From assembly GCA_944391755.1 (NCBI GenBank), contig CALXUT010000006.1, positions 1 to 35,192 on the forward strand: DNA of 35,192 bases. The letters run 5' to 3'. The translations under genes were made by a program, and so were the position numbers. Below, piece by piece: positions 26,493-31,852 of the stretch (its first letter is position 1; every line of letters starts with the position of its first letter). The notes beneath the pieces are model-generated. The model was not told the origin of the DNA. It ran no database searches and saw only the letters and a list, made by a program, of their open reading frames with translations. This DNA is from an uncultured Clostridia bacterium. Lineage in GTDB: Bacteria; Bacillota; Clostridia; TANB77; CAG-508.

Positions 26493-26521
26493 TTGACATA
26501 ATATTAAAAGTGGTATATAAT
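26493..26521 (+). promoter_or_regulatory. Promoter of the larger island gene
   Basis: Perfect consensus TTGACA (26493-26498), 17-bp spacer, TATAAT (26516-26521). Confidence 0.85.
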
Positions 26522-26588
26522 AGTAAGCGTACGGCATTCATTATTGCACCGCTATAGTAGTGCACGACAAATGAAAGGAGTAAATAGT

Positions 26589-30622: not shown

Positions 30623-31354
30623 ATGTATGATAAAATTTATTCAAGAAAAAGATTTTTAATAAAACCTCTTAGGAATTATCCAAGACCACATAGAAATAGT
30701 AGAAACATAAAAAAACGAAAAAAAGTGATAAAAATATTAATAATCATATTATTAGTTATTATTATTTATAAAGTAATATTAAATTATGTAGATCCAATAT
30801 TTGAGGGACTATGTGAAGATCAAGTAAAATCAGTAGCAACAGTTATAACAAATCAACAATCAACAATGATTATGAATAAGTATCAATATAATGAATTATA
30901 TTCAATAGAAAAAGATGATAATGGTAAAATTTCAATGATAAAAGCCAATGTTGTTCCTGTAAATAATATGATATCTGACTTGACAGAAAATATACAAAAT
31001 GAATTTGACGAAATAGAGAAAAGCAATATAGAAGTTCCACTAGGAAGTTTATTTGGAACCTATTTTTTATCAGGGATAGGTCCTAATATTCCCATAAAAG
31101 TTTTAATGTCAGGAACACTTGATACGGAAATAAAGAATGAGTTTGAAACACAAGCAATCAACCAAACACTTCATAGAACTTATGTGGAATTTGAATGTAA
31201 TATGAAAATATTAACACCACTAAGTAGTTATTCAAAAACAATTACGAATCAAGTGATAGTAGGAGAACATGTTATAATAGGTGAAATTCCAAGTACATTT
31301 TATGATTTGGAAGGCATTACTTCACCTGAAGAGACTCTCAATGTGATAGATTAA
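30623..31354 (+). CDS. yunB: Sporulation protein YunB
   Basis: A 243-residue mother-cell sporulation protein of unknown biochemical role. A basic start (YSRKRFLIKPLRNYPRPHRN) is followed by one membrane helix (about 38-55) and an outer domain with family features: VDPIFEGLCEDQVKSVAT, EVPLGSLFGTYFLSGIGPNI, INQTLHRTYVEFECNM and VIVGEHVIIGEIPSTFYDL. YunB is under sigma-E control in Bacillus. There is no clear ribosome site; the ATG lies 1 nt after the sipL stop, so translation is probably coupled. A short terminator follows. Confidence 0.88.
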   Translation: MYDKIYSRKRFLIKPLRNYPRPHRNSRNIKKRKKVIKILIIILLVIIIYKVILNYVDPIFEGLCEDQVKSVATVITNQQSTMIMNKYQYNELYSIEKDDNGKISMIKANVVPVNNMISDLTENIQNEFDEIEKSNIEVPLGSLFGTYFLSGIGPNIPIKVLMSGTLDTEIKNEFETQAINQTLHRTYVEFECNMKILTPLSSYSKTITNQVIVGEHVIIGEIPSTFYDLEGITSPEETLNVID

Positions 31355-31387: not shown

Positions 31388-31519
31388 AGACATATTTATG
31401 AGAAATAAAAACAACAGCTTCAGTTAACTTCATTAGCAAAATAGAATAAATATAAAAATAAGGTTCATTTTGGAAACTTAAAAAAATCTATATCATTAAA
31501 AACAAATGTTCTGAAAATA
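31388..31519. other. Non-coding spacer
   Basis: About 130 bp of AT-rich sequence after the yunB terminator; I see no gene or clear signal in it. The 690 bp between yunB and rpsI as a whole hold the toxin-antitoxin candidate. Confidence 0.4.
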
Positions 31520-31548
31520 TTGACATTTTACTATAAAAATTGTATAAT
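31520..31548 (+). promoter_or_regulatory. Toxin mRNA promoter
   Basis: Perfect consensus TTGACA (31520-31525), 17-bp spacer, TATAAT (31543-31548). Mirrors the antisense promoter at 31824-31852. Confidence 0.85.
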
Positions 31549-31573
31549 CTGTTAAGAAAGTAAGGAAAAGCGG

Positions 31574-31586
31574 AATGTGGTTACCA
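31574..31586 (+). repeat. Left arm of the 13-bp inverted repeat
   Basis: AATGTGGTTACCA in the toxin leader; its exact inverse complement is at 31786-31798. It starts 25 bp after its -10, as does the other copy after its own. UGGUUACCA is nearly self-complementary, so two such RNAs could pair. Confidence 0.85.
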
Positions 31587-31621
31587 TCTCAATTCTACAT
31601 AAGAAAGTGAGGTGGTGTGAA

Positions 31622-31759
31622 ATGTTAGAAGAAATGCTTTTACAATTATTGATTTTATCATTTTTTGGAAATGTAGCTCTTGCTATCATCTCATTTGCAT
31701 TAATTATAGTTATAACTATAATTATATACAAAGAAAATCACATCTCTGCTGACCAATAG
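31622..31759 (+). CDS. Small hydrophobic peptide, candidate type I toxin
   Basis: A 45-residue peptide: MLEEMLLQLLILSFFGN, then a hydrophobic stretch VALAIISFALIIVITIIIY and the polar end KENHISADQ. The single membrane helix, acidic start and short charged tail match holin-like/type I toxins of Bacillota (TxpA, BsrG, Fst, Hol_Tox group), which damage the membrane when translated. GAGGTGGTG gives a usable ribosome site before ATG 31622. It has a perfect consensus promoter with a leader of about 67 nt, and a terminator that overlaps its last codons. On the opposite strand a second perfect promoter drives a short RNA into the same terminator. An unrelated small membrane peptide remains possible. 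Confidence 0.68.
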   Translation: MLEEMLLQLLILSFFGNVALAIISFALIIVITIIIYKENHISADQ

Positions 31760-31773
31760 AGATATGATTTTTT
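31734..31773. terminator. Shared bidirectional terminator of the toxin locus
   Basis: 14-bp stem with one mismatch (AAAATCACATCTCT with AGAGATATGATTTT), 10-nt loop; T6 on the plus strand and TTTTCTTT on the minus strand. It contains the toxin stop codon. Confidence 0.75.
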
Positions 31774-31785
31774 AATTATCCATGT

Positions 31786-31798
31786 TGGTAACCACATT
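31786..31798 (-). repeat. Right arm of the 13-bp inverted repeat
   Basis: Inverse complement of 31574-31586. With its promoter (31847-31852 and 31824-31829) it forms a 67-bp unit of the same length and spacing as 31520-31586; I count 44 of 67 bases identical. Confidence 0.85.
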
Positions 31799-31823
31799 TT
31801 GTGGATCCTTATTTTCTATAATT

Positions 31824-31852
31824 ATTATAATACAGAAAATGAAGAATGTCAA
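31824..31852 (-). promoter_or_regulatory. Antisense RNA promoter
   Basis: Minus strand TTGACA (31847-31852), 17-bp spacer, TATAAT (31824-31829): perfect consensus with optimal spacing. Confidence 0.85.

Follow-up and report, generated by a model that had tools for sequence, protein, structure and literature searches.

In Bacillus subtilis, the bsrG toxin mRNA and the antisense RNA SR4 are transcribed convergently and overlap at their 3' ends. The same arrangement of toxin mRNA and antisense RNA is described for txpA-ratA of this bacterium (PMC4147584). In the par locus of pAD1, convergent promoters share a bidirectional terminator, and repeats give the two RNAs a second contact; the Shine-Dalgarno (SD) sequence of the toxin is sequestered by a 5' stem-loop. 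According to the sections of the source used here, the repeat sequences differ between par loci, and the YUNR U-turn in the terminator loop of the toxin RNA is absent from some par homologues (PMC7472228). Two E. coli systems, tisB/istR-1 and dinQ/agrB, combine a LexA-controlled toxin promoter, a hydrophobic peptide and an RNA antitoxin, and the tisB message has an inhibitory 5' UTR structure (PMC8309996); tisB and istR-1 are divergent (PMC4147584). Three pairs of Clostridioides difficile (CD2517.1-RCd8, CD2907.1-RCd9 and CD0956.2-RCd10) are convergent and overlapping. They encode small membrane proteins of 50-53 aa, which the sections used here describe as having no homology to known type I toxins, and they have Sigma B promoters and a CRISPR association (PMC6563280).

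A cassette with a comparable layout lies in the window, by which we mean the whole stretch of 35,192 nucleotides analyzed here, from an uncultured Clostridia bacterium with a draft genome of 1.48 Mb. The cassette is flanked by genes that we take to be yunB-like and rpsI. Its features are the following:

31499-31512, + strand: candidate LexA box AAAACAAATGTTCT, upstream of the toxin -35, scoring 10.7 bits with a matrix made from recA and lexA of the genus
31520-31548, + strand: toxin promoter TTGACA-17-TATAAT, 12/12 in the sequence
31555-31621, + strand: leader of the toxin mRNA, its start placed from the -10, with a purine-rich 5' end common to the antisense RNA
31574-31586, + strand: sense copy of element E, AATGTGGTTACCA, read from the sequence
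31583-31591, + strand: anti-SD arm ACCATCTCA, predicted by folding to pair in cis with 31608-31616
31608-31616, + strand: SD region TGAGGTGGT, read from the sequence
31622-31759, + strand: ORF of a 45-aa hydrophobic peptide, the candidate toxin, with its ATG at 31622
31732-31773, both strands: shared hairpin, read as a terminator from either side, located by a looser hairpin search
31725-31818, - strand: antisense RNA of ~94 nt, both ends placed from the promoter and hairpin positions and from the family alignment
31786-31798, - strand: antisense copy of element E, read from the sequence
31792-31804, - strand: 5' hairpin of the antisense RNA, an inverted repeat with two-sided pair-keeping changes
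31852-31824, - strand: antisense promoter TTGACA-17-TATAAT, 12/12 in the sequence

The first-pass annotation of this DNA had proposed a convergent type I toxin-antitoxin locus with two perfect promoters, a shared element 25 nt past each -10 and two 67-bp units that are inverted relatives, and this anatomy is borne out. AATGTGGTTACCA occurs once per strand in the window (31574 and 31786), each time at that spacing. As inverted copies the 67-bp units are identical at 44/67 positions, or at 32/55 outside the hexamers; inverted 67-mers drawn at random from the surrounding sequence have a mean of 19.9 (sd 4.0), and 0/20000 reach 44. Both strands of the window together hold 3 perfect promoters with spacers of 16-18 nt, against 0.14 per dinucleotide shuffle. 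The third of these has its -35 beginning at 26493 on the + strand, just 5' of a 240-aa ORF that starts at 26544. Over ~50 nt at the shared terminator the two predicted transcripts cover the same DNA and are perfectly complementary. In the window's subfamily the codons for the C-terminal residues of the peptide, ENHISADQ, lie within the terminator hairpin itself (31732-31759); in the shorter family peptides examined, the ORF ends before the hairpin. Relatives of the neighboring yunB-like gene (30623-31354) are split near residue 144 in several genomes of the genus, often by an in-frame TAG, and the recA matches in two genomes (G010 and G026) contain TGA and TAG stops; these may be pseudogenes, assembly errors or something else.

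The peptide has a hydropathy peak of 3.02 over 19 residues, and it is this hydropathy that suggests a single helix. A search with the one peptide finds relatives in 70/117 genomes of the genus, and a profile search finds the peptide in 145/210. In an order-wide sample it is present in 148/287 genomes, with 2 of the 148 outside the window's family; the 139 misses are a single count of family members and outsiders. The window's genome carries four copies of the peptide family at E <=1e-3 and at least one further cassette (L375), whose peptide has no significant profile match (E 0.071). One close peptide alignment leads to 55 loci, and the named relatives are metagenome-assembled uncultured Clostridia, Clostridium sp. 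or similar. The ORF is under purifying selection: in 771 related, non-independent pairs the median dN/dS is 0.39, and it is below 1 in 93%. Four family peptides have no match in Pfam or NCBIfam up to E 10, Fst included; three peptides give nothing under E 0.2 in PHROGs; and searches of phages, plasmids and viral contigs, with one peptide or one subfamily alignment each, give no match. In Rfam the window has no hit at the gathering threshold, and at the locus there are sub-threshold hits only. A literature search found no description of the cassette family, which does not in itself prove that none exists. This is thus a large family of cassettes in uncultured Clostridia without a match in Pfam, NCBIfam or Rfam.

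For the comparison of promoters and RNAs, 147 distinct loci were assembled. Two (L157 and L187) were removed before promoter scoring, which covered 144 toxin sides and 142 antisense sides. Sufficient flank was available for 141 loci and a confident leader for 121, then 118; the leader permutation test used 113, after removal of 5 whose antisense anchor was misplaced. A promoter with 0-1 mismatches is present on the antisense side of 137/142 loci (4/142 shuffles) and on the toxin side of 33/144 (1/144 shuffles), so that, as judged from these sequences, the antisense promoter is closer to consensus and better conserved than the toxin promoter. Homologues thus keep the antisense promoter, and they keep the mirrored repeat as well; had they lost these while retaining the peptide, the convergent locus first proposed would have been refuted. 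Related genomes thus show the peptide together with a near-consensus antisense promoter. Two perfect promoters are special to the window and a few other loci and are no rule of the family. Outside the window's subfamily, many toxin promoters have no good LexA-like box but carry GTTCGCTTG overlapping the -35, and others have TAGACAA-type variants; these sequences are possibly another operator.

Upstream of the toxin promoter, conservation extends to about -56, the position of the LexA-like box, and on the antisense side it ends near the -35. The box was scored with a matrix built from the boxes that precede 21 recA and 25 lexA genes of the genus, and from no toxin locus. These boxes were chosen by regular expressions (in 21/23 and 25/28 loci), and LexA binding at them is therefore itself presumed. 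A score of at least 8 is reached at 32/121 toxin promoters, at 7/118 antisense promoters and in 3.3% of shuffles, and 29 of the 32 toxin-promoter sites fall between -53 and -68 relative to the start of the leader. A site of 10.7 to 16.2 bits is present in 13/14 loci of the window's subfamily, a count that leaves out two further members that are truncated or without a start. The half-sites are constant and the center is variable (TTTT, AAAT, AAAA). The window's own box, AAAACAAATGTTCT, has the lowest score of the subfamily set, tied with that of L034, and sites scoring as well number 3 in the 35-kb window. The LexA-like box suggests that the subfamily could be induced by the SOS response, as is E. 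coli tisB. As a rule for the whole family the box was rejected: it is strong in the window's subfamily and weak or absent at most other loci, and we therefore propose that the subfamily, not the family, is under SOS control.

Folding predictions indicate that the ribosome-binding site (RBS) of the toxin is locked by its own leader. The mean predicted probability that the SD is unpaired is 0.09 over 115 loci, versus 0.42 for shuffled leaders, and values below 0.2 are predicted in 96/115 loci versus 14% with shuffled leaders. E is predicted to pair better in cis with the RBS of its own locus than with that of a permuted locus (24 clusters, 0/500). On the antisense side, all 5 consensus pairs of the 5' hairpin have at least one two-sided pair-keeping change among 54 sequences; broken or gapped cells number 0 to 4 per pair. 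The RNAalifold consensus of the antisense RNA contains this hairpin and lacks the terminator stem. A strict terminator scan misses 31732-31773 because the A/T arms of the hairpin pair with each other; the looser search recovers a shared hairpin in 108/141 loci, a few of them plainly spurious. YUNR is found in the terminator loop in 84/108 cases on the toxin strand and 39/108 on the other strand, compared with 44% of shuffled loops, the loops of relatives being non-independent. In 5/141 loci (L083, L103, L109, L125 and L164) the toxin leader carries, upstream of E and at an identical position, an insert of ~60 nt that contains a strong hairpin (ACGCTTACCTGA ... AGCGTTAT) and resembles a small palindromic element that prefers one site.

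The two RNAs of a locus resemble each other in their leaders in a way that is particular to that locus. The 13-bp element E varies between loci (GGTTACC, GGTTTGCC, GTGTTGCC, GTGCTACC, GTCGCC and others), and within each locus the sense and antisense copies vary together. In a comparison of own and permuted leader matches over 26 peptide clusters, 0/500 permutations equaled the own match; at other clustering cut-offs the result was 45/500 at 70% (6 clusters) and 0/500 at 75, 80 and 90% (14, 26 and 47 clusters). The inverted relatedness of the two 5' ends, noted at first for the window, is real and recurs in loci with other peptides, where the own match beats permuted ones in a test of 27 of 30 loci, a few with a misplaced leader (0/2000). 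Paralogous cassettes within one genome behave likewise: the own match is 9.78 versus 7.62 (0/10000 permutations) and is better in 36 cases, tied in 6 and worse in 12, for 58 loci in 28 genomes, 4 of the loci having no differently named partner. This comparison removes the genome background, which argues against one trans-acting factor reading a fixed sequence. With segment limits for E and the leader that were set after seeing the sequences, and with sequences that share ancestry, the two arms match in the +1 leader (15/5000) and E (0/5000), and they do not match in the promoter spacer (4310/5000), the region upstream of the -35 (892/5000) or the region after E (2846/5000). The confinement of matching to transcribed segments points to selection on the RNAs and not to gene conversion.

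What the matched leaders do is less readily explained by base pairing. The first-pass annotation had supposed that the RNAs could pair through a nearly self-complementary element, but as a general reason for the matching this was rejected, since only 7/27 distinct E cores, the window's among them, exceed 95% of their shuffles in self-complementarity. Nor did a model of RNA-RNA pairing bear the idea out: leader identity is specific to the locus, but for the predicted pairing of leader with leader such specificity is not clear (88/2000 in the best of nine comparisons). The sense copy of E is predicted to pair with the 5' arm of the antisense hairpin at -11.60 kcal/mol, versus -7.91 for shuffles, with 19/500 for own against permuted loci and 149/2000 within genomes. 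A role of antisense E as an anti-SD in trans was also rejected, the effect being weak (24/87 beat 90% of shuffles at the RBS) and not locus-specific. In 82 distinct loci, some with misplaced hairpins, 93/101 positions at which sense E differs from the antisense 3' arm are also unpaired with the antisense 5' arm, and the combination of hairpin and pairing alone therefore fails to explain leader identity. We tentatively entertain the idea, on balance doubtful, that the identical 5' leader is a locus-specific address label whose two copies are kept alike by selection on the RNAs. A shared partner might recognize this label, or the leaders might make homotypic contacts. If this is true, paralogous SOS-linked cassettes would coexist without cross-talk, and different toxic peptides could be swapped on one chassis.

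That the regulatory parts serve more than one peptide is seen when the peptide is ignored. A pattern consisting of the antisense promoter and the leader start has matches in 44/58 genomes and a reversed control has 0. A subset of the matches (30 loci and 40 further regions) gave 67 distinct antisense units, of which 5 are truncated by contig ends and 62 remain. An SD-preceded hydrophobic ORF faces the antisense unit in 47/62; for units with at least 250 nt the count is 45/60, versus 19/1200 dinucleotide shuffles and 16/1000 random stretches of the window. Of these 47 facing ORFs, 17 match the profile of the window peptide and 30 do not, and thus one regulatory chassis serves several peptides. 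The 30 may, from their sequences, be separate or very distant families; non-matching chassis peptides have no match in NCBIfam and only sub-cutoff matches in Pfam (best E 0.014, at 15.1 bits where the cut-off is 27.7). Among the other 15/62 units, some contain ORFs missed by the filter, in some the start of the ORF has been lost, and several are without a hydrophobic frame. Antisense units with a lost or truncated ORF, such as L007, L008, L015 and L029 (two of these are the same units as in the 15), suggest that the antisense part can outlive the toxin. This is as expected if only the antitoxin can safely remain, and loss of the ORF could also be drift.

The computed anatomy, family conservation, purifying selection, predicted RBS lock, LexA-like site and locus-specific leader matching are, in our judgment, probably those of a chromosomal type I toxin-antitoxin cassette with a par-like layout. 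The first-pass annotation did not include the LexA-like box, the predicted locking of the RBS in cis, the extent of the family or the other chassis peptides. We infer that both strands are transcribed. The strong promoter would produce the short antisense RNA, and the toxin promoter an mRNA whose leader hides its own RBS. The RNAs would overlap by their ~50 nt at the shared terminator, and through this RNA-RNA control the antisense RNA would prevent synthesis of the peptide. For the window's subfamily we expect the LexA-like site to keep the toxin promoter repressed as long as the DNA is undamaged; upon SOS induction the toxin mRNA would exceed the antisense RNA, and the membrane peptide, presumably toxic, would slow the cell.

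Much of this would also suit a peptide that is induced by stress and modulates the membrane or cell division without killing, its dose being trimmed by an antisense RNA. The cassettes are chromosomal and often present in several copies per genome, one subfamily has a LexA-like box, and the peptide queries used found no plasmid, phage or viral-contig copy. We nevertheless think a modulator unlikely: an antisense promoter much closer to consensus than the toxin promoter, a locked RBS and antisense units that persist after loss of the ORF all fit a harmful product better. A second reading concerns the leaders only, and attributes their likeness to DNA repair, through conversion or template switching at the inverted repeats, and not to a function of the RNA. 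That leader identity is locus-specific within one genome while predicted pairing is not clearly so speaks in its favor. Conversion, however, should ignore transcript starts, and the matching found in the +1 leader and E does not extend to the adjacent spacer, the upstream region or the sequence after E; repair as the sole cause is improbable to about the same degree as the modulator.

Cassettes that are at least 90% identical usually lie in unrelated flanks (100/131 pairs differ on both sides), and there are cassette-free sites, the rpsI end being found 86-181 nt past the yunB match in 3/29 loci of relatives. A mobile element of the MITE type, with promoters in its terminal inverted repeats by chance and the peptide and antisense RNA as by-products, is nonetheless very unlikely, since no conserved fixed outer ends for terminal inverted repeats were found. 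In addition, conservation stops at functional parts and does so asymmetrically, the arms do not match in the promoter spacer and upstream of it, and the ORF is under purifying selection. The perfect 13-bp inverted repeats on both sides of the ORF might also be taken for an invertible switch, in which recombination at the copies of E turns the ORF toward the strong promoter. Among 118 loci, however, the AGCAG type is found in 114 sense and 0 antisense leaders, the hairpin arm in 116 antisense and 0 sense leaders, and no flipped state was seen. The leader types never change sides, so that a switch is the least credible of these readings and can hardly be entertained.

In layout the cassette is like par/fst (RNA I / RNA II), with convergent promoters and a bidirectional terminator, here recognized at the sequence level. 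As in par, the SD is sequestered by a 5' stem-loop, here by prediction, repeats lie near the 5' ends and YUNR is on the terminator loop of the toxin strand. The two differ in their repeats: those of par are, in the sections of the source used here, direct and complementary in both RNAs, whereas the clear repeat of the cassette is inverted and identical in both RNAs, which raises the question of why a toxin mRNA and its antisense RNA share identical and not complementary sequence. The cassette also has a LexA-like box, and LexA is unmentioned in the main text of that review (PMC7472228). Since its peptide has no Fst match and its clear repeat is inverted, we do not place it among the Fst members. 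With txpA/RatA and bsrG/SR4 it has the convergent overlap in common; its peptide is without a Pfam or NCBIfam profile match, and the portions of the literature consulted for these two pairs make no mention of mirrored leaders.

With tisB, as far as the source sections used here describe it, the cassette shares a small hydrophobic peptide, a putative RNA antitoxin, a predicted inhibitory structure in the 5' UTR and a putative LexA trigger; it is convergent, encodes another peptide and belongs to Clostridia. The C. difficile pairs are likewise clostridial and convergent. The cassette would be linked to LexA and not to Sigma B, and the two are set apart by description, not by sequence, from the sections used of PMC6563280; these contain no SOS-controlled clostridial type I case, and the SOS-inducible examples that they name are from E. 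coli. What is new in the present family is the LexA-like box in a subfamily, the locus-matched leaders and the single chassis facing other hydrophobic peptides. The family adds a large type I toxin-antitoxin-like group in uncultured Clostridia, unmatched in the family libraries searched. It also predicts SOS-controlled membrane toxins in Firmicutes, a phylum that would then join E. coli, the only source of such cases named in the sections of the reviews used here (PMC8309996, PMC6563280, PMC4147584).
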